Assembly: GCA_022393335.1 (NCBI GenBank)
Contig: JAJEKB010021353.1
Location: 881,717 to 945,716 of the forward strand
DNA: 64,000 nucleotides
Origin: Macrotrachela quadricornifera
Taxonomy: Eukaryota > Rotifera > Eurotatoria > Philodinida > Philodinidae
Direction of reading: 5' to 3'
The notes under the pieces were generated by a model, which searched no databases, was not told the DNA's origin, and was given only the letters and a program-made list of their open reading frames with translations. Each line of letters opens with the position of its first letter. Positions within the stretch are counted from its first letter, which is position 1. Positions 5,469 through 60,137 of this stretch are shown piece after piece. Both the position numbers and the translations under genes were made by a program.

Positions 5469-7158
5469 ATGCTATTCGAAGCAACGGATACAGAGGAAAA
5501 TGACGACTTGCAAAGTGATGTGAGCAGTTTGGGTGATGAGTTCTCCAGAACGTAATTCGAATCTACAAGCTCCAAAGACGTTACGGATGATGGTGATGGT
5601 AATGATGATGTGGATTCACAAGTATGGGACGAGATAGAATCCGAATCGAATATCGAATTCACGGAAGATTCTGGAATGATGGAAGAGGTGCCAGGAAACT
5701 ACGAAGATAGTGCGATCAATCCTGTCGATTGTTATCGATATTTCATCACTGATGAAATTATTAATCTCATGGTTCATGAAACTAATCGATACGCAAAACA
5801 ACATTTACTAACTCAGCAGCTTACCAAAAGATCGAAAACTCTCCAATGGAAACCAACTAATAATGAAGAAATGCTCGAATTTTTTAGAATTATCATTGAA
5901 ATGGGATTAGTACAAATGCCAGAAACAGATTATTACTGGAGTAAAAGCAAGCTGTTTGGATCTGAAGTCATTCGAAATATGATGTTAAGAGATCGATTCG
6001 AATTATTTCTCAATTTTTTTTCATTTTTCGAACAACCAAGAAGAGCATGCAGACAAAAACAGGTTGTTCAAGCTCAGACCGCTTTTAGATTTATTGAGAG
6101 ATAGATTCAAGTCAATTTACGTGCCTGGCTCCGTTATTTCTATCGACGAAACAATGGTACCATGGAAGGGGAAGCTTTTATTCAAACAACACATTCCTGG
6201 AAAAGCACACAAATATGGAGTCAAGATATACAAGCTGGCAGCTACTAACGGATACACTTGGAATTTTATGATTTACACTGGTAAGCGGGATTCAATGGCA
6301 GGTCTTGGGCACGGTCAAACTGTCATACTCGATCTGGCAGATGGTCTTCTCGAGTGTCATCGAACTGTAGTAGTTGACAACTTCATTACAAGTATTTCCC
6401 TCGCAGAGAACTTATTGCAAAATGATACTTATCTTATTGGAACATCGAGAAGCAATCGCGCTGGATCAGGGCACGAAGTGGCTTAGAAAATGCTCAAACA
6501 TGGTGAAATTTATGGTTTCCAGAGTAATAATGGTGTAAAACTAATCAAATGGAAAGATAAAAGAGATGTTTTGATGATATCAAGAAAGCCATCGCATTCG
6601 ACAACGTTGATAGACACTGGAAAAACCAATAAAGCCAATCAACATATCATGAAACCATCAGTTGTTCTCGATTACAATAAGGGAAAACAAGGTATAGATT
6701 TATCTGACCAATTATCAACATGCTATACATGCCTTCGACGGTCAAAAAAATGGTATCTCAAAGTGGCATTTGAGATGGTATTTGGACTGTCAATTGTAAA
6801 TGCCTATTTGATTTACAAACAATATTATGGCACGAACTTTATGACGATGTTACAATTTCGCGAAAGTCTCGTGGGGTCTTTACTTCTGGGTGTGCCATAC
6901 GAGAATCTACAACCTGGTCCAAGAGGACGTTCAACAAGCCAAATGAAACGCAAGCTGGCGGATCACAAGCTTGAAAAAATGGAAGGATCTGCACGTGATG
7001 TCAGAAGACGATGTATTGGTTGCTATGAGAAGATTAGGCAACAACAATCAAGAGAAGCAAGTGCGATCGCAGCAAAGAGGATAAAAACTTTCTGTCCTGA
7101 CTGCGACAAGTTTTTCTGTCTTGATTGTTTTAATGAAAAACATTCCTCTAAACAATAA
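5469..7158 (+). pseudogene. piggyBac transposase, broken
   Basis: A cut-and-paste transposase acting at TTAA sites. The coding frame starts at ATG 5469 with an acidic leader, has a TAA stop at 5553, resumes to about 6050, shifts frame near 6050-6064, and has a TAG at 6484 before continuing to 7158. The DDD catalytic core is visible: SIDETMVPWKG, then VVVDNFITS, then GIDLSDQL. The C-terminal Cys-rich zinc domain is complete (CIGCYEK ... CPDCDKFFCLDCF ... H). With two stops and one frameshift it cannot make a full protein, yet all domains survive, so decay is fairly recent. Confidence 0.9.
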
Positions 7159-18841: not shown

Positions 18842-20549
18842 CAAGGGCGTAAATAAGGAGGCCAGTGGGGACTACACATTGCCCCCGGCTCACGAAAAAT
18901 TAATAGAAAAGAACAGGGACGGCGCGAAGAGGTCAGGGCAGGGGGGGGGGGGTGATACCCCAAAAATCGGAGCCTCTGGTCGAAATGGTCAAAATCGGAG
19001 AAAATTTTCTCATTCTGCTTAAATTCGGAGGAAAACTAAGCTTTTTTGTTTGTCATCGCTTTCTTTTCGAAGCAAACTTTACGACATCCTTTGGACTAGT
19101 ATGAACGCACTTCATGCAATACGATATTGAGAGTTCCAACAAAAAATTTGATTATTTTAAAATTTTATTCTTCGTTCAGTTTTAACCTTACAACTTTGTT
19201 CATAAAATAACACTAGAAAAATATGAATATCAAAACTTACAAGAAACAATTTAAATACAAATACAACGTCTACATTTATTCTATGGCCATCTTTCCACGA
19301 CATTCTCCTTGAATATTTGCACGGTTTATTAAACGATACATAGGTTACTCAACCCGTTCGTACCGGATGTCTCATATACGAGATGGAGGCATGAAACCTC
19401 GACACACATGAGTTAAAAAAGAGGAAATGTAAAGAGTGTTCATTATGATAAGGCATCCAGTATGTGAAGTTGCTTGCTATGGCACTTATACTATATACTG
19501 AGCACAGGTCTGACTAGTTGCAGCGCTCTTATTTCATAATTACGACAACAATGAAACATCATTTAGACTCTTTAAAGTATTGAATATTCTTGAGAAATAT
19601 TCTTTTTGCATTAGCAACCCGTCAATCAGATTGTTTCGCGCTGTTGTTGACGTGAGAAAGAAATATTTATACATTAATCATTCATATCCATATATTACAT
19701 TACTTTTAATGCCAGATACATCTAGCTATAACACTAATTTCTCCCTTAAATCTCAAGAATTGAAAAAATTAGTGAAATAGATTTCAAACTTAGATTCTTG
19801 CCAAATTTAGGGTAAGTTGTCTACTGTAATGCTCCGAAGTCAGGGAAAATTGTTTACTGTAATTCTCCGAAACTGGAGAAAATTGTCCATTGTGGTTCTC
19901 CGAAATCGGAGAATTTTGACTAGTGTGGTCCTCCAACATCGGAGAAAATCATATAATGCTCCTGCAAATTTGGAGAAGATTGTCTATTGTAATACTCCGA
20001 AATCGGAGAAAAGTATTTACTATACTTCTCCAAAATTGGAGAAAATTGTCTGCTGTGGTTCTCCGAAATCGGAGAAAAGTGTTTACTATAGTCCTCCAAA
20101 ATTGGAGAAAATTGTCTGCTGTGGTTCTCCAACATCGGAGAAAATCACATAATACTCCTGCAAATTTGAAGAAGATTGTTTACTGTAATGCTCCGAAATC
20201 GGAGAAAAGTGTTTACTATAGTTCTCCAAAATTGGAGAAAATTGTCTACTGTGGTTCTCCGAAATCGGAGAATTTTGACTAGCGTTGTTCTCCAATATCG
20301 AAGAAAATCACATAATGATCCCGCAAATTTGGAGAAAATTGACGCTATCAAAATTTTCAAATTCGGAGAAAGCTTCAATCAAAATTTTTTAGAGCAGGGG
20401 GGGTGCTCACCCCTATCACCCCCTCGGTCGCGCCGTCCCTGGAAAAGAAAGATTTACCTCCTGCTTTTGAAAACTTGATTTTTTCTGGTCACCAAAATAG
20501 AAAAACTTAGGTTACGACCCCCTGCCCTAGTGCCTGACTTACGCCTTTG
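18842..20549. mobile_element. foldback element with palindromic minisatellite core
   Basis: Ends are inverted: CAAGGGCGTAAATAAGG on the left and CAAAGGCGTAAGTCAGG (reverse) on the right. A second inverted pair lies inside: CAGGGACGGCGCG at about 18913 and CGCGCCGTCCCTG at about 20430, next to G-rich runs. There is no transposase. Target duplications were not evident. The core is the minisatellite at 19815-20370. Confidence 0.6.
19815..20370. repeat. TCTCCGAAATCGGAGA palindromic minisatellite
   Basis: About 16 units of roughly 33-36 bp, each built round a hairpin such as TCTCCGAAATCGGAGA or TCTCCAAAATTGGAGA, with spacers like AAATTGTCTACTGTGG. A higher-order pattern appears: a CTGCAAATTTGGAG variant recurs near 19960, 20157 and 20322. 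Because of the periodicity several frames stay open on both strands; these are not genes. Confidence 0.85.
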
Positions 20550-25188: not shown

Positions 25189-27021
25189 ATGCTGAATCTG
25201 AAAATGATAACTACTCGTCTATTTTTCATTCTTTTGGTTTTTTTTTTGCATCAACGTAGCCGTGGTGACCAGTTGTCGGTGTATGATGAAGATACGAGTA
25301 AATCAGCGATGTTTTACGCAGCTGCTGCTTATTGTGATCCTCTAATATTACTTCAATGGAATTGCGGTACTGCTTGCTCGGCAAATCCAGGTGTTATAAC
25401 CGTACGTCCTATCATTTATGCATCGGCAAACAGTTATACATTCGGTTTCGTCACTTATAATCCTCTTACAAATAAAATTATTGTCGCCTTTCGTGGTACT
25501 AATGGTGTGCCAACAGACTTGGCAACATTTCGAACGTTACAAAGTTTTCTAAACTGGAAGACAAATATCGGTTATACACTGTCACTGTATGAAACCGGTG
25601 GAAAAGTTCACCGTGGATTTAATAGGGCATATAGTAGTGTCAAAACTCAAATTCGATCGTCAGTTAAGTTTCTGTTAAAAACATTTTCAGGAGCACAAGT
25701 CTTAGTTACTGGACACTCCTTAGGTGGCGCACTTGCAACACTAGCTGCTGTCGATTTAAAAAGACTACATCAAAGTGTACACATACAACTGTACACATTC
25801 GGTTCACCACGTGTAGGAAATCGAGCATTTGCCAAATATATTTACACCTTATTTCCGTTAGGAACCGTATACCGAATTGTAAACGCTGGTGATATTGTTC
25901 CTCATACGCCTACATTTCTTCAGAAATATGTTCATGTTGGTATTGAAGTGTGGTATCCAAATAGCAATACGGTAACCTATAAACAATGCGTTTTGCAACC
26001 ATCGGCATTGATCTTCGAAGATCCAACATGTTCAATTTCTGGAATTCTCGATTTAGATTTATCATCTCATTTGCAATATTTGATGTATCCTATTACAAAC
26101 CTCTGTTCATTCGAGGAGCCAATGGGCTGTGCGATAGATTCCAATGATATCTCGCTAATCCATTCAGTAATATCAAACCATGTCTTACCTCTTATCCATG
26201 CTAAAACGCAACATTCGATGCTGTTAAACATTTCTCATAGCAATGCTAGGTGCCTTGGACACTGCAATAGCCTAGGATGCAATAATAAAACTGGTATTTG
26301 TTACGACAGCTGTTCCGACGCTACAAAATGGTGGGGCCCACGATGTGATCAACCATGTTTGGGTCACTGTAACGGCCTTGGTTGCGATAAAGACAACGGT
26401 CTTTGTCGTGACNNNNNNNNNNACTGTAACGGCCTTGGTTGCGATAAAGACAACGGTCTTTGTCGTGACCGCTGTTCCGACGCTACAAAATGGTGGGGAA
26501 AACAATGTGATAAAGTTTGTGGTGGCCATTGTAATCGGATGGGATGTCGACAAGAAACCGGTTTTTGTCATGACGTGTGTTCAGATTCAACTAAATGGTG
26601 GGGACGTAAATGTTGTAATAATTCTTGCATAGGTAACTGTAATTCTTTGGGCTGCGATATTGAGACTGGCTTGTGTAAGGATTCATGCTCCGATTCCACA
26701 AAATGGTGGGGGCCACGATGTGATCAACCATGTCTGGGTCACTGTAACGGCCTTGGTTGCAATAAAGACAACGGTCTTTGTCGTGACCGCTGTTTCGACG
26801 CTACAAAATGGTGGGGAAAACAATGTGATCAACCATGTATGGGCCATTGTAATAGCCTCGGTTGCCAAAAAGATGATGGTCTTTGTTACGACGGCTGTGA
26901 AAAGAGTTTGTGGTGGGGACCTCAGTGTGCAATTTCCTGCTACAATTGTATTAAGCATTGTGGATGCTACAAAGCGACCGGAACTTGTGCTTGTGAGCCT
27001 CGTGGATCTGTCGTCAATTGA
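25189..27021 (+). CDS. secreted class 3 lipase with C-terminal Cys/Trp repeats
   Basis: A predicted signal peptide (about residues 1-26) is followed by an alpha/beta-hydrolase of the class 3 lipase type. Visible parts are the oxyanion-side FRGT (101-104), the nucleophile elbow GHSLGG with Ser177, Asp235 in NAGDIVPH, and a candidate His294 in SSHLQYL. It probably hydrolyses acylglycerols outside the cell. From residue 355 come about seven repeats of 35 residues, pattern CxGHCNxxGC...GxCxDxCxDxTKWWGxxC, ending in a Cys-rich cap. They resemble EGF-like modules and may bind a surface or substrate. The 10-N gap at 26413 falls in repeat 2-3, so the repeat number is unsure. Both ATGs at 25189 and 25204 are possible starts. 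Confidence 0.85.
   Translation: MLNLKMITTRLFFILLVFFLHQRSRGDQLSVYDEDTSKSAMFYAAAAYCDPLILLQWNCGTACSANPGVITVRPIIYASANSYTFGFVTYNPLTNKIIVAFRGTNGVPTDLATFRTLQSFLNWKTNIGYTLSLYETGGKVHRGFNRAYSSVKTQIRSSVKFLLKTFSGAQVLVTGHSLGGALATLAAVDLKRLHQSVHIQLYTFGSPRVGNRAFAKYIYTLFPLGTVYRIVNAGDIVPHTPTFLQKYVHVGIEVWYPNSNTVTYKQCVLQPSALIFEDPTCSISGILDLDLSSHLQYLMYPITNLCSFEEPMGCAIDSNDISLIHSVISNHVLPLIHAKTQHSMLLNISHSNARCLGHCNSLGCNNKTGICYDSCSDATKWWGPRCDQPCLGHCNGLGCDKDNGLCRDXXXXCNGLGCDKDNGLCRDRCSDATKWWGKQCDKVCGGHCNRMGCRQETGFCHDVCSDSTKWWGRKCCNNSCIGNCNSLGCDIETGLCKDSCSDSTKWWGPRCDQPCLGHCNGLGCNKDNGLCRDRCFDATKWWGKQCDQPCMGHCNSLGCQKDDGLCYDGCEKSLWWGPQCAISCYNCIKHCGCYKATGTCACEPRGSVVN
26413..26422. other. assembly gap (10 N) in the lipase repeats
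   Basis: The 47 bases on either side of the gap are identical, so it may be an unmerged overlap instead of missing DNA. Merging would remove one repeat unit. Confidence 0.8.
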
Positions 27022-27224
27022 ACCCAAAGCCATCCCTATATTGATTTATTTTCTTTGAAGGATACGCCTGCTTTATCCAAGAGCAAATTCCTAATAAAAC
27101 CAGTACGAAAAAATTGATGCGTCGGGTCTCATCAGTTTTGACATTTCTTATTGAAAGATGAACTCCCTGAACCAGGAGGGACCACAGATTTCTTATCAAG
27201 CTATCTTGAGGGTGAGAGTGGGGT
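27022..27224. other. lipase 3' flank
   Basis: Non-coding sequence between the lipase stop and the first ribozyme. An AATAAA lies near 27091. No other feature seen. Confidence 0.3.
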
Positions 27225-27290
27225 GAGTACAGCTTCCCAAGATCCAGATTTCGTCCTTGCTTAAGAAACTCATCAGTTGGCTTATAACTC
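27225..27290 (-). ncRNA. type I hammerhead ribozyme, copy 1
   Basis: On the minus strand all core parts are present in order: stem I strand GAGT...CCAA, core CTGATGAG (27269-27276), a stem II hairpin with loop AAGC, GAAA (27249-27252), a two-pair stem III AT-CTGG-AT, cleavage triplet ATC (27241-27243), and the return strand TTGG...ACTC. CCAA/TTGG and GAGT/ACTC pair perfectly, with an internal loop between them as in natural type I ribozymes. Cleavage is expected between 27241 and 27240. The very short stem III suggests it works best as a dimer. Confidence 0.85.
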
Positions 27291-27414
27291 TGCAATAGTC
27301 ATCTGAATGACTGCGAGAATCACAGATAGACTATTATAACCTATACAGGATTGAGTAATGGTTTCTCGAAAGGAACACAATTACCCAAGTGATAGATATC
27401 CCTGAATGAGGAGT

Positions 27415-27480
27415 GAGTACAGCTTGCCAAGATCCAGATTTCTTCCTTGCTTAAGGGACTCGTCAGTTGGCTTATAACTC
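27415..27480 (-). ncRNA. type I hammerhead ribozyme, copy 2
   Basis: Same 66-nt architecture, exactly 190 bp from copy 1. The core reads CTGACGAG; the changed base is the variable position 7 of the CUGANGA consensus. Stem I arms (CCAA/TTGG, GAGT/ACTC), stem III with loop CTGG, and the ATC triplet are kept. Stem II keeps its inner pairs but the closing pair is lost (GAAGAAA where copy 1 has GACGAAA). Same strand as copy 1, so one transcript would carry both. Confidence 0.8.
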
Positions 27481-28017
27481 TGTGCAAGTTAGAGAGAACT
27501 CTCAATAATAGAAAAAGGTTAGATTTTTTTGCAAGATTAGTTTTTTTGATTCGAATTCGTTTATGTTGCTGAGATTGAAATGAAATGTGTTTTGTGTTTC
27601 AGTATGGTGAACACGACTGTGAATAATTTGTTAGCACAAATTGTTTAAGTTTAGTATTTGCGATTCTAAGTTTGTTCTTTGATTCCGGATTTCGGTTGAT
27701 TTGCCGTTTTCCCTTTTTGTTTGGTTCATATGAACATCGACGAACTAGTTCTTTCGTAAGGTTTGGTCTCTCTCGAATTGCCACTATCAGTTTCTTGAGG
27801 GGTGAGTTTTGTCAAACTAGTACGCGTTTCGACTGTATCTCAATGGAAAGTTGAAGGCTATCAAGTTTCATAGTTAAATTAACTAAGGTATGTTAAATCT
27901 TTTGGTTTATTTTATAGATAGAGTTCATGATAGGAAAACAGAGAACGAGGAAGAAAATAATGGAATGAAATATGTGTATATGTCTTAGAAAAGTATGATT
28001 ATGTCATTGGTTGTTGA

Positions 28018-28498
28018 CTAATTTTTGTCATTAGCATTCTTTTTAGCTGTTGTAGTTGATTTGGGATGTTCAGCATCATTGTGATCTTCATATTCTTCAT
28101 CACTTTCAATGTCATTTTCGCCATTGTCGTCTGATTCATCATCATCATCTTCTTCATCGATCGTATTTTCTTCAGTATCTGTATCGTCGTCGTCTTCATC
28201 CGATTCTTCATTAATTTGACAAAAGTTAACGGTCGTGTCCTTGTTAATTAAATTACGATCGTTGACTAGTACTGCTGGATTGGGTAGATTTAAGATAACG
28301 TTGTTGTTGATTTTGATATTGATCGGCTTTTGCTTGCTATTGAAATCATTTTGAAAAACTTTTAACAGAAAGTATAGATTTTGCCAGAATGTATGTGACA
28401 AGTATTGCTTACTGTTAATTCTACTTACACATATTATTTTGAATGAGTGGTTCTTTGTTATGAAAGATGTTTTCCATATCTTTTTGGTATTTTGCCAT
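28018..28498 (-). CDS. small acidic two-exon protein
   Basis: Exon 1 (28498-28429) begins ATG with MAKYQKDMENIFHNKEPLIQ. A consensus donor GTAAGT, a 70-nt intron and a TTAAAAG acceptor lead in phase to exon 2 (28358-28018). The joined product is 136 residues. The second half is strongly acidic, with long Asp/Glu runs, and ends in a basic Lys/Asn tail. Such tails occur in nuclear and chromatin-associated proteins, but no domain is recognised. An upstream acceptor near 28530 leaves room for a further 5' exon. Confidence 0.5.
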
Positions 28499-28580
28499 TT
28501 GATTAAAATAAAAAATGAAAAGAATATCTGAAACACAAAAGAATATGTTAGATATTTACAAATGAAATGTGTGAGGGTGT

Positions 28581-28646
28581 GAGTTCAGCATACTACGATC
28601 CGGATTTCGACCTTGCTGAAGGGTCTATATCAGCTGGCTCTAACTC
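28581..28646 (-). ncRNA. degenerate hammerhead ribozyme, copy 3
   Basis: Also 66 nt and on the minus strand. Stem II is better than in the other copies (GACC/GGTC plus TT/AA, loop CAGC, one bulge). GAAA, stem III (AT-CCGG-AT) and ATC are kept. The core reads CTGATATAG where CTGATGAG is expected, and the inner stem I strands (CCAG and GTAG) no longer pair well. Probably inactive. Confidence 0.65.
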
Positions 28647-28653
28647 TGTTATT

Positions 28654-30560
28654 CCCTCGACTGTAGGGAGGGTCATATGAAAAAAAAATAGTTTGTGCGT
28701 GTGTGGCAGGGTCAAAAAAACATGCTCTCAGAAAGATCCATCAAAGATCATAGCTTTGACAAAAGTCAACAGTTAACCTTGGACCAAAAGTTTTCGGGAC
28801 CGGGGAATCGAATGGGACTATTAGTTTTTCGATTTTTTCAAGTAATTTTTTTTGCTAAAAAAAGAGTTTTTTTAAGAAAAAAATGATTTTTTATAAAGTT
28901 TGACCGAAGGTTTTCGAGGTCGGGGAGTCGATTGGTATGATTAGTATTTTAGTTTTCTGACCCAAAAAATTATTTTTTCACCAAGAATGTTTTTTTGACT
29001 CTCATGATCAGTTTTTTACCACAAATGTTTTTTGACCCTCATGATCAGTTTTTTACCAAAAATGGTTTTTTGACCCTCATTCCCTCGACTGAAGGGAGGG
29101 TCATATGAAAAAAAAATAGTTTGCTTGTCGTCGGAGTCAAAGGTCAAAAAAACATGTTCGTAGAAAAATCTCTCAAAGAGTCAAACTTCACGCTTGACTC
29201 AACGCTTAAGGTCTGACCAAGGGTTTTTGGGGTCGGGGAATCGAATGGCACTATCAGTTTTTGAATTTTTACAAATAATTATTTTTGCTAAAAAGGGCTT
29301 TTTTCAAGAAAATAATGATCTATATTATAATGTTCGGTGTGTATCTGTCTGTTACCGGGATCAAAAAAACATGGTTTTAGATTGGTGCGAGGGGTCAAAA
29401 AAACATGGTTATAGTTCGAGCTCTAGAGGAAAAAATAGGCTTGGCTATCTTCTTCTATATAATAATGTTGAGTGTCTCTGTGTGTGTTACCAGGTTAAAG
29501 GAGCAGGAGTGATGGTAAAGATGGGATCAAACGAGCATATGATTGTTTTCAAAGAAATTTTTAATATTGGCTACCTTTAAATAAGTTGAATATCATGTAA
29601 TAAGCTTTGTTTCCCAGCAGAGGTAGAATTCTAAAAGTGTCTTTAAGAATTCTCTCGCCAGCAGAAAAGATTTTCTTCACAGAGTGAAAGCAGCCTTGCA
29701 GCATGCACGGGTTTCCACTAGTTTCTTATAAAGTTTGACGAAAGGTTTTCGGGGTCGACGAATCGAATGGCACTATTAGTTTTTGAATTTTTTCAAATAA
29801 TTTCTTTTGCTAAAAAAGGGCTTTTCCCTCGGCTGTAGGGAGGGTCATATGAAAAAAAATAGTTTGTGGGTGTATGTGTGACAGGGTCAAAAAAACATCC
29901 ATATAAAAAATAACTAAAACATTCAAAATTAATCTTTCGGAAAACGTTCATTACACCGAGGCATGACAGTTAATCAACGGTATTGCTTATTTTGGTGGTA
30001 TCTGAATTGATCAATTGATGCGAGGAATTGGTGATGTTTTCTATTTTTCATCGAAAACAAGTATTTTATCACGAGTTGCTGATTTCACCATGGTGTGTAA
30101 TGAACACTTTTACTTGGTGTGGTGGTATTGGAATTGATGAATGAAGGTATATGGTAGTATTAACTTCGTTAGAGGGTTTTTTTCTTCGATTGAGTGGAAG
30201 AGCATACAAAAAAACTAAAATGAGTTTGTGTGCGTATCATCGGTCGCACGTCGAAGGTCCCATTTGAAACATATTTATTTGACCCAAAGATTTTCGAGAT
30301 TGAGGAATCCGAATTTGGTATTCATTTTTAAAATTTTTTTAAGAGTATTTTTTTCACATAGTATATGTTTTTTACGAAAACAAATATATTTTATAAAGTT
30401 TGAGCAAAGGTAATCGTAGTTCAGGAATCGATTGATGATGTGAATTTTTTAAATTTTCTTGGGATTATTTTTTCACACAAAGGACAGGTTATTTTACAAA
30501 AAAAATTTTCTTTGTAAAATTTGATCATAGGTAATTGAGGCTCACGACTTAAATCGAGTT
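28654..30560 (+). repeat. composite repeat block: motif C and 116-bp units
   Basis: Motif C (CCCTCGACTG, GGGAGGGTCATATGA, an A-run, a TGTG-rich stretch, CAGGGTCAAAAAAACATG) occurs at 28654, 29081 and 29825. Between the copies lie degenerate units beginning TTTGACC and containing GGTTTTCGGGGTCGGGGAAT, at about 28785, 28901, 29213, 29735, 30282, 30398 and 30515. Where adjacent they are spaced about 116 bp. The open frames at 28695 and 29194 fall in these units and are not genes. Confidence 0.65.
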
Positions 30561-57138: not shown

Positions 57139-59357
57139 CCCTAGTCCATTCTCCCTCGTAAAGTCCCCAGTGAGTCCCTTAAAAACTGCGAAATCCCCAG
57201 TGAGTCCTCAGGGAATCCCTAAAGTACGGGGACTCCCCAGGGATTCACTTGGTGACTCTCTGGGGAATTCTCCATTTTTAAAGATTATGGAGCAAGTTAA
57301 AAACTCCCTAGAGAGTCACTGTACGGGGACTCCCTAGGGAGTTTTTTTTCGATAGATGGATAAATAGATAGATCAATATGTAGGTCGATCGATAGATAGA
57401 TAGATAGGTACCCAGGTCTATATGAACGGTTGAGAGTGAGGGTGGGTAAACCGGTAAAAACGGCATGTCTACGGTGATCCGATATTTTTTATTGACGACT
57501 ATTGACTAAGCACACATATACAGATACATTACGGAACATTTTACGGACCGTGTATCGTACATTATTTACGACACCGTAACGAAACACCGTTTACATGGCG
57601 CTTTTAGCGGTTTTTAATATGTATCTTATTATAAGATGTTAAAGTAAATCTAACAAGATTCTTAATGCAAGATTCTTATAAAATTTTATGATTAGAATCT
57701 TGCAAGATCGTATTTGATCATAAACAACTAAAGCCTTTTTCATCAAACCAATATTTTGGACCACATTACTTGTCTGCATTTAGATATTTTAGCAATATCA
57801 TCAAATAGGCAAGTATAAATCTTAAAGATGAAATTTTTATTTTTTTAATTTAGATATTTGAATTATTGCGTCGAATAGATAAGTATGAGTTTTGTATATG
57901 AAATTTTTCCTTTTCTTTTCTAGATATTTTGGCAATATCGCTGAAAAACTTAGCATTAATTATATATATATAAAACTTTTATCTTTTAGATAATTCAATA
58001 AAACCATCCAATAGGCAAGTATGTAATTTATATATAAAGCTTATATTTTTTTTATTTAACTAGTTTCAATTTTATCAACGAAAAGGTAACTGAATTTTAT
58101 ATATATTAAATTCTTATGTTTTTAGATCTATTAATAATCCCATCGAATAAACAGGTATAAATTTTATATATAATTTTTTTTATATAGATGCTACAATGAT
58201 ATTGTCGATAAGGTATGAATTATATATATATAAAGTTTAGATTTTTTCGTGTAGACATTTCAATCAAAATTTTGACTAGGCAAGTATTATTCTAATATAT
58301 AGAATTCTTATTTTTTCATTTAGGTATTTCAATAATACTGTAGCGTAGATAAGTGTGAATATTAAAAATGAAACTTATTTTTTTATTCAAATATTTGAAT
58401 AATATCATCGAATAGGCAACTGGAACTTTGTATATAAAGTTTAGATTTTCTTTTTAGATATTTAAATTTTATTGTCGAATAGACAAGTATGAATAGAATA
58501 TATATAAAATTTTTATTTTTATTTAGATATTTTGATAATAGTTTAGTACATGTAAGTATAAATTTGATATATTAAATTTTTATTTTTGTTTTTATTTAGA
58601 TGTGCTTTCCCTAACATCATCAAAATGGTAAGTATAAATCAGATGTATGACTGGTGATGTTTGTTGAAATGTGATGAAAAGCGAGAGAAGGTGATGAAGA
58701 ACGGCTAGTTAGGGAAAGAAAAAGGTTAGAGATTAGACTAGAGCGACGAAAAACTCTATTGAAGCCCTATAGAAGTTTGTATCAGTAAAAGAAGATCTTG
58801 CACAATCTTAGAATACAAATCACACAAGAATAATACCTTAAGATTTAAATTTTAGCCGTAAACGGCGAGAAAACGACCAAATACGGTGCGTTTACCATAC
58901 AGATACAATACGGTGCGTATTTCTGCGCCAGGAAATACGGACCGAGATCGGTCCGAATCTATCCAATATACTGTCGTAAAGACTCCGTTTTGACCACTTT
59001 TATAGTTCATTTTTGGTTCGAAAACAACACTGTTTTGATAGACCTGGGTAGGTAGGTAGATAGGTAGGTAGATAGATAAATAGATAGATGGGGAGGTAGG
59101 TAGATAGATAGATAGATAGGAAGGTAGGTAGGTAAACATATTGGTAAGTAGGTCCAAAGAACGACAATTGGTTACGACCTAGAAAGTCTCTTTGAGAATT
59201 AGACACTCACTATTCGCTTTTAAGGCCACTCCCTGAAAAATCCCTGGGGATTCCCTCAGAACTTCCCGTTAAATCCCCGGGGAGTCCATGTCGGGAATCC
59301 CCGGGGAGTTTTAGCGGGGGACTCCCCAGGGATTTCATAAGGGAGAATGGACTAGGG
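57139..59357. mobile_element. 2.2-kb TIR element with minisatellite core
   Basis: Perfect ends CCCTAGTCCATTCTCCCT on both sides (inverted). Subterminal blocks repeat GGGGACTCCCCAGGGA-like words. Inside are TAGA/TAGG microsatellites (57355-57415, 59040-59150), two TACGG patches (57440-57610, 58855-58990) and an array of about 65-bp units (57760-58640). No transposase and no clear target duplication. Confidence 0.7.
57760..58640 (+). repeat. array of intron/micro-exon-like units
   Basis: About 13 degenerate units of roughly 60-70 bp. Each has a T-rich tract ending TTTAG, then about 27-30 bp like ATATTTGAATAATATCATCG plus AATAGGCAA, then GTATAAAT. The pattern copies acceptor, micro-exon and donor, but the short segments hold stops and no shared reading frame. 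Confidence 0.55.
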
Positions 59358-60137
59358 ATTGTTCTTTATAGTTTTTTATCACAAATCTAAATCAAGAACT
59401 ATTGTTACATCTAAAACAAAAGTTTATTCAATTTGAAAACAGTTATACATTCTCCATTTTTTCTTCACTTTTACATCTTGAAGATAATCGATAATCAATA
59501 TCTGTACACCATGGTAGCCTGGACTTATCACTGTGATAAATAAATATCCATTATTTACTGCATACGCTTTTTGTGTTCTTTTGCATGAAGTCTGTATAGA
59601 ATGTGGTGGTTTCTTTGTGATTTTTCTCTTGAATCACTCTTAAATAGCTATAACAGAGTTAAAATCATATGACGAGTGTTTTACCCAACATGGAATCTGA
59701 ATCATGTAGCTCGGACTATTTTATAACTCCTAGTTGTCTTATTTTAGTTATTTGTTGATTTCATCATGCGCTTGCGGTTAAATAGTAACCTGTGTCTTGG
59801 ATTTGTTTCTGTTTACAGTTTTACCATCCATAAACGTTGCTACTATCGAGTATTCTCTGATGCTGAAGGTCTTGTTCTTCTATCGTTTTCTTCTTCTTCA
59901 TGTTGTGACAGATTTTTCACGATTGTAAATTCCAAAGGTGTAACATGGCAGCCAATACTAACAATAGTTGACAAAAATGGAATTTATAAAAAAAAACAGT
60001 GCCGTTCATTACATCGAAAAATAGTAATTTAAAAAACGAAAACTTATTTCAAAGTACATTTGAGTGGGTCCTTTTATCTTAGACATACATTCTTTTCTTA
60101 CTAACAAACATTTTCAAATTTCTTTTACAATAGTAAA
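59358..60137. other. possible coding relics, unresolved
   Basis: On the minus strand, frames near 59440-59620 read KRTQKAYAVNNGYLFITVI and, one frame away, NHKETTTFYTDFMQKNT. Near 59860-60000 a further minus frame contains HVTPLEFTIVKNLSQHEEEE. A plus-strand frame (59766-60032) overlaps the last. I cannot decide which, if any, is real; the frame shift suggests a decayed gene. Confidence 0.25.

Follow-up and report, generated by a model that had tools for sequence, protein, structure and literature searches.

Why do two hammerhead ribozymes stand in a row on the minus strand of this DNA, and are they an element in their own right or the end of a larger one? The window, by which we mean the whole stretch of 64,000 nucleotides that was analysed, covers positions 881717-945716 of its contig, which is 2.6 Mb long and belongs to an assembly of 450 Mb; the copy treated here lies about 0.9 Mb inside that contig. 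Reading the sequence, we consider it probable, at roughly 80%, that the pair forms the 3' end of a Penelope-like retroelement, now truncated, of the Athena/Terminon kind that attaches to telomeres, and that its ribozymes would cut as a pair joined through stem III. We prefer to see it as the end of an element because the family to which the pair belongs often sits behind reverse transcriptase genes and before telomere-type repeats. The pair consists of the following parts, scored with Rfam and with a covariance model of our own, R2:

27410..27482, minus strand: hammerhead motif A, upstream member of the pair (R2 85.9 bits, E 2.7e-24; Rfam Hammerhead_1 16.9 bits, E 0.39)
27430..27431, minus strand: predicted cleavage site of A, after ...GGATC, placed according to the hammerhead scheme
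27293..27409, minus strand: spacer between A and B, conserved with the loci L016, L017 and L018, with GGATATCTATC or a one-base variant of it near its start
27220..27292, minus strand: hammerhead motif B, the 3'-most (R2 88.1 bits, E 5.3e-25; Rfam Hammerhead_1 22.3 bits, E 0.0061)
27240..27241, minus strand: predicted cleavage site of B, placed in the same way

The two units are 73 nt each and 91.8% identical (89% if 80 nt are compared), and their starts are 190 bp apart, which confirms the preliminary description of two minus-strand hammerheads at these places and this distance. Each of them has CTGANGAG, a stem II, GAAA, ATC ahead of the cut, an inner stem I of CCAA/TTGG and an outer stem I of GAGT/ACTC, all as had been described. 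They are thus of type I by their CTGANGA/GAAA/ATC core, their stems I-III and their open stem I, with the exception of one stem II pair, the closing one, which is broken in A (G-A); the remaining conserved core positions of A are all intact. For the words CTGANGA..GAAA the window has 8 occurrences where 6.9 are expected, which is not significant alone, and single units fold no better than shuffled sequences (z -0.59 and 0.27); neither figure was used as proof. A comparison with the Rfam hammerhead models, which had been suggested at the outset, came out divided: there is no match at A or B at the gathering score of 34, and below it Hammerhead_1 is the sole family at both units in the 501 bp searched.

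The observation was accepted because other members of the family in this genome preserve every helix by compensatory changes. A DNA search of the 450 Mb genome with the pair gave at least 42 places (77 candidates, 40 of them scored), which after merging make at least 40 sites including the window's own; of the 39 other sites, 20 were examined with flanks of about 2 kb on each side and 19 with about 300 bp, and for 15 the 10 kb upstream were read as well. The covariance model finds 96 matches in the window and 54 loci, and 74 copies are left when overlapping loci are merged. Two further copies lie in the window itself:

28576..28648, minus strand: hammerhead motif C, decayed, with the core CTGATATA and a broken inner stem I (R2 70.1 bits, E 3.3e-19); ACTCACACCCTCACAC comes next
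59654..59723, plus strand: remote decayed hammerhead, a weak fourth copy (R2 27.3 bits, E 1.6e-5)

In motif C we likely see the 3' terminus of a further element, the next one upstream. Inverted repeats had suggested one more copy near 24.08 kb on the plus strand, which reached 9.7 bits (E 2.3) and was dropped. The phage records that were searched for the motif gave no match; scans of viral contigs with two patterns returned 2 and 5 stretches, whose surroundings look by eye like phage coding sequence, and these were set aside as chance.

Model R2 was built from 47 copies outside the window, and since A, B and C had supplied the model by which these were collected and aligned, the R2 scores show membership of the family and not full independence; proof of the RNA structure lies in the covariation. 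Among 70 distinct rows, 90.0% of the cells are paired, against 75.5% in shuffled alignments and at most 48.1% in slid ones, doubly changed cells number 139 against 44.8, and all 15 of the 15 pairs have changes on both sides. When the window copies are removed (46 distinct rows left) the values are 91.3% against 79.7%, 71 doubly changed cells against 20.8, and 11 of 15 pairs. The alignment was fitted to the structure, a bias in its favour, and it is the slid and shuffled controls that carry the weight; A, B and C alone are too few for covariation to be counted.

The part of the structure that says most about how these ribozymes may work is stem III. Between GAAA and the cut there are 4 or 6 bases, plus two from the end of the cleavage triplet. 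Parsing on core and stem I alone succeeded for 49 of the 74 copies (25 could not be parsed), and four rows were dropped, namely L026 and L034, which are 93-94% identical to L024 and L025 over about 4 kb, and L051 and L052, which we took as duplicates of L029 on account of identical motifs and spacing. In the 45 copies that remain the stem is fully self-complementary in 43, with differing sequences such as TCTGGA, TCTAGA, TCGCGA, TCATGA, CCGG, CGCG and CATG; the two strings that are not were kept in the count, and one of them (CGGTCG) is probably a wrong parse. The innermost, adjacent bases are able to pair in 44 of the 45 (26 Watson-Crick, 18 G-U) and in 13 of the 14 distinct strings (binomial 2.6e-5 against 6/16). 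Adjacent bases in the middle of such a stem cannot pair in a hairpin, which points to pairing between two ribozymes. The "two-pair stem III" of the preliminary description holds for a lone ribozyme, but the segment is better read as 8 self-complementary nucleotides (AUCUGGAU) that would pair between copies, and the paired ribozymes, not the single one, are likely the catalytic unit. The earlier classification as type I with a very short stem III, the sort that is linked to Penelope-like elements and for which dimeric action is predicted, is supported, and the arrangement of A, spacer and B recurs at further sites.

The computed energies of the window pair favour the double form, at -14.3 kcal/mol for the bare double hammerhead against -4.0 for two monomers, and -48.8 against -35.9 kcal/mol when the remainder is free to fold. 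In the unconstrained optimum (-60.9 kcal/mol) both outer stem I helices still join A to B, with 8 of 8 pairs, and stem III has zero pairs, with neither catalytic core formed. In a consensus fold of three copies of the A-spacer-B arrangement, stem I likewise forms between strands of A and strands of B, and the spacer has a hairpin ahead of B.

Upstream of the pair are the remains of a gene:

27713..27811, minus strand: 33 residues (QNSPLKKLIVAIRERPNLTKELVRRCSYEPNKK) that match the C-terminus of a reverse transcriptase, about 230 bp upstream of A

By tblastn the 33 residues match the C-terminus of the L022 gene (51% identity, E 1.4e-4) and the bdelloid protein P0121 (E 2.1e-4); the match is short, at E about 1e-4, and unrelated places reach E 1e-3 in the same search. 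At the DNA level the window matches the same gene end at L018 (77%, E 4e-12) and at L024 (78%, E 2e-15). At L018 a longer reverse transcriptase, which holds a stop, precedes an A-spacer-B end by 1.2 kb, and with database proteins as queries tblastn detects the gene in 10 of the 15 upstream stretches of 10 kb. The whole genome has at least 140 reverse transcriptase matches (136 of 1056 candidates scored). Among the matches listed, a reverse transcriptase is found within 6.5 kb and on the same strand upstream of the ribozyme at at least 14 of 40 sites and downstream at none of 40; the 14 include likely alleles or duplicates (C1480/C4631 and C4120/C3045/C1658). There is no gene upstream at 26 of the 40 sites among those matches, and three sites were added otherwise (the window, L041 and L044). 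The best named relatives come from Rotaria, Adineta and Didymodactylos (best 120 of 128 matches, many of them unnamed), and the nearest named ones among the matches listed are bdelloid reverse transcriptases that bear no element name. Together with the nearest named relative of the lipase gene beside the pair (from Didymodactylos carnosus), these matches make it likely that the genome is a bdelloid rotifer's, one that has no close representative in the database. Three of four database relatives match Pfam RVT_1 with scores that stay under its cut-off, and the window family's own fragments do not match it; a profile search of the Protein Data Bank gave weak matches, the best being bacterial antiviral reverse transcriptases (E 0.0095). 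On the point of a GIY-YIG endonuclease, which elements of the Athena/Terminon kind lack, the observation is one of frames at L022: between the reverse transcriptase and the ribozyme, the sole frame of at least 80 aa on that strand is one of 82 aa. The window copy is a relic, and as it keeps only the end of the reverse transcriptase it could move only with help from outside.

Downstream the pair runs into repeats of the kind that Athena-type elements carry:

27205..27228, minus strand: telomere-type C-strand stretch ACTCACCCCACTCTCACCCTCAAG, with two TCACCC units that are not contiguous, and whose first bases double as the 3' strand of the outer stem I

In the window it is B that ends in such a stretch, and there is none behind A. 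Over the family, [T/A]CACCC occurs within 45 nt past the last base of the model in 29 of 74 copies against 2.7% of random windows, and two or more such units in 8 of 74 against 0.6%; a telomere-type unit stands on the upstream side of the ribozyme in 3 of 74, G-strand units are found in none of the 74, and 45 of the 74 have no strict unit past the motif. An earlier, looser count, in which the last 12 bases of the motif were allowed, had given 45 and 20 of 74, and is superseded by the 29 of 74; split by position it comprised 35 of the 52 copies that are last in their row and 10 of the 22 upstream members. The motif CCTCAAG(A/G) closes the telomere-type tail in 20 of 74 copies, against 1.2% of random windows. 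Junctions of hammerhead, telomere-type repeats and a 5'-truncated reverse transcriptase are present in two of the 10 gene-bearing upstream stretches, those of L046 and L045. At L046 four units come after a weak hammerhead (20.5 bits), and 4 positions behind them starts the match to a reverse transcriptase that lacks its front part; at L045 a hammerhead-like stretch, decayed as judged by eye, is followed by two units and directly by a C-terminal piece of the gene. The 20 ends of 10 contigs were also fetched; one consists of N and the other 19 have no run of telomere repeats, and TCACCC thus stays a putative telomere repeat of this species.

The arrangement within the pair is found again at L016, L017 and L018, where two ribozymes have a spacer of the identical type between them (at L017 the upstream ribozyme is decayed), and where the bases behind the A-type ribozyme lead into the GGATATCTATC motif or its one-base variant, with no telomere repeats. 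The common spacer means that A-spacer-B has been copied as a unit at least once. The other close rows differ: at 17 of 40 sites the model has two or more matches within 400 nt on one strand, at spacings of 84-260 nt, a count that takes in weak matches and in which three sites look mutually duplicate. At L023 (2208-2347 and 2390-2529) there is a true hammerhead tandem, in which 140 nt of a 182-bp unit repeat at 97%; this is possibly a retrozyme-like tandem inside a telomere-type element end, and is the best case for a retrozyme-like form.

The copies at L016, L017, L018 and L023 bear directly on the other ways in which the pair could be explained. That it is a chance resemblance, or dead sequence with no RNA function in any copy, is hardly credible: the sub-threshold Rfam scores and the ordinary folding of single units are what chance would give, but covariation in every helix over 70 distinct rows and the scores of the family-wide model are not. 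A more serious proposal is a metazoan non-LTR retrozyme: the tandem unit would code for nothing, and its two hammerheads would set free a 190-nt RNA, to be closed into a circle and reverse transcribed by the enzyme of another element. In its favour are the type I form of the hammerheads and their spacing, which falls in the 150-450 bp reported for metazoan retrozymes (PMC7229834), the recurrence of A-spacer-B at L016, L017 and L018, and the true tandem at L023. At L016 and L017, moreover, likeness to the window ends close to A on its 5' side, and the 10 kb upstream gave no reverse transcriptase. A retrozyme should however be non-coding and have no reverse transcriptase of its own, and here a gene end lies 230 bp upstream of the pair and a longer gene before the L018 pair; in the window there is also no second copy of the spacer or the flanks. 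As for tandem monomers of 150-450 bp, the window offers a single interval of 190 bp and L023 a repeated unit of 182 bp. The last ribozyme moreover has a telomere-type stretch behind it, and the spacings vary from 84 to 260 nt. We find this explanation quite improbable, and with it the free-standing small ribozyme retroelement of the preliminary description loses its support.

The pair could also be two stacked elements, A ending one and B ending a second that is truncated to about 110 bp, in which case the pair as such would have no function. Stacking of truncated copies head to tail is a published habit of such elements (in the part of PMC6431247 that deals with their ends) and is present at L045 and L046; in the window, motif C and its telomere-type stretch precede the next unit in the same manner, and A is followed by a degenerate ACTCACTCCTCA. 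We hold it for possible but unlikely, as A and B are joined by one spacer at L016, L017 and L018, an arrangement that was copied as a unit, and as what comes past A at these loci is the spacer motif and not telomere repeats. A single 3' end with two ribozymes, from a truncated Penelope-like element, remains the reading that we favour.

The closest published counterparts are the Athena/Terminon elements of bdelloid rotifers, described in PMC6431247 as having a 3' hammerhead followed by (ACACCC)n or (TCACCC)n, with 5'-truncated copies stacked head to tail through telomere repeats. The present family resembles them, as far as that description goes, in its 3' hammerhead with a TCACCC-type tail, its upstream reverse transcriptase and its stacked 5'-truncated copies, but the genome is a different one, the copy in the window is a relic that lies deep within a contig, and its end has two ribozymes with repeats only after the last. 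The assignment to Athena/Terminon is likely and is made by the anatomy of the 3' end. Minimal type I hammerheads that act as dimers are known in Penelope-like elements from Cervera and de la Pena 2014 and Luense et al. 2017, as cited in PMC7761336, and share with the window pair the type, the very short stem III, the tandem order and the predicted dimeric cleavage; the difference from what is cited there is that the dimer is here read from covarying stem III palindromes, and that the pair lies in the 3' region, any pseudo-LTR around it being hypothetical. Metazoan non-LTR retrozymes, in the account of PMC7229834, have tandem type I hammerheads at 150-450 bp, low GC and circular RNA; the tandem, the spacing of 190 bp and the low GC are the same here, whereas those elements are described as non-coding and as having no attached reverse transcriptase or telomere-type tail. 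The newt and axolotl hammerheads treated in the same source have a one-pair stem III with a palindromic tetraloop and are efficient only as dimers, much as predicted here, but are presented as satellite repeats of about 330 bp and not as retroelement ends. Terminon hammerhead ends, tandem minimal Penelope-like hammerheads and dimeric action are thus already in print in what these papers report (PMC6431247; PMC7761336).

The region upstream of the gene end is shared with other sites of the family:

27846..28570, minus strand: region 79-83% identical to L018, L020 and L035 (shorter there); a hammerhead lies downstream of it in every case
28018..28536, minus strand: acidic frame of 172 aa (QNDINSKQKPINIKINNN...CQINEESDEDDDD) inside this region, conserved at the window, L018, L020 and L035

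Motif C and its own telomere-type stretch stand before the region 27846-28570 in the window, and at L020 a decayed ribozyme-like stretch and ACTCACCC lie at its border, which L018 and L035 lack (both judged by eye). No Pfam family matches the acidic frame above cut-off, and its residues 30-120 have no database match. A splice-acceptor-like TTTCAG is present ahead of it in 3 of the 4 sites, and at L035 it runs on from what we take to be a carboxylesterase-like frame. Beyond motif C, at 28650-30530, follow degenerate repeat units of 430-545 bp with GGTCAAAAAAACATG and ATTCCCTCGACTGTAGGGAGGG blocks, which return in the opposite direction at about 63.2-63.8 kb. On the other side of the pair, at 25189-27021 on the plus strand, is an intron-free lipase (class 3) gene with a C-terminal cysteine-rich repeat array of units of about 105 bp, which has a gap of 10 N inside. 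Its nearest named relative among the matches listed is from Didymodactylos carnosus (52% identity), and beside this one bdelloid the named relatives among the 120 listed include an amoeba, trypanosomatids, fungi, algae and corals, so the gene may have come from outside the animals. The window also contains a broken piggyBac-type transposase in two frames (5610-7158, plus strand; Pfam DDE_Tnp_1_7), and at L044 (6015-7697) two long frames, presumably piggyBac-type transposase-like, stand upstream of reverse transcriptase remains and ribozymes. A near-perfect inverted repeat at 57290-57355 (CTCCCTAGAGAGTCACTG..CGGGGACTCCCTAGGGAG), where Rfam has a microRNA-like hairpin below cut-off, is likely a short inverted-repeat element, and an array of 33-bp repeats at 19802-20341 (TTCTCCGAAATCGGAGAAAA) has CTCC-GAAAT-CGGAG hairpins.

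How such an end might work can be sketched from these parts. The RNA of an intact relative would end in a folded ribozyme that leaves the (TCACCC)n tail single-stranded, and this tail could pair with the G-rich overhang of a chromosome end, where reverse transcription would begin. A lone ribozyme, having a stem III of two pairs only, should cut poorly, and as a cut at B would remove the tail, a single terminal ribozyme would be better left uncut, as the weak stem III predicts. Where two ribozymes stand in one transcript, either from head-to-tail elements or in an A-B tail, their stem III segments may pair, and the double hammerhead would cut both sites and so trim read-through RNA to unit length; in the window copy, cuts at A and B would free an RNA of 190 nt. 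In the experiments on a lizard Penelope-like element that PMC11167929 describes, the ribozyme cut only together with protein, and ribozyme mutants had no effect on insertion in vitro. It is a bolder thought, and rather unlikely to be true in full, that pairing acts as a switch, by which the single terminal ribozyme keeps its tail uncut and paired ribozymes cut stacked elements, and that A-spacer-B ends and the L023 tandem are the source of free retrozymes.

A family of ribozyme-ended retroelements of the telomere type has thus been identified in a large bdelloid-like genome, and its covarying palindromes, 14 distinct stem III strings, are evidence at the level of sequence for ribozymes that would work in pairs. 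The role of the ribozyme at the end that binds the chromosome was called a mystery in a review from 2020 (PMC7761336, where it touches on this end), and the comparison of single with paired ribozymes makes the question of what the terminal ribozyme does a testable one.
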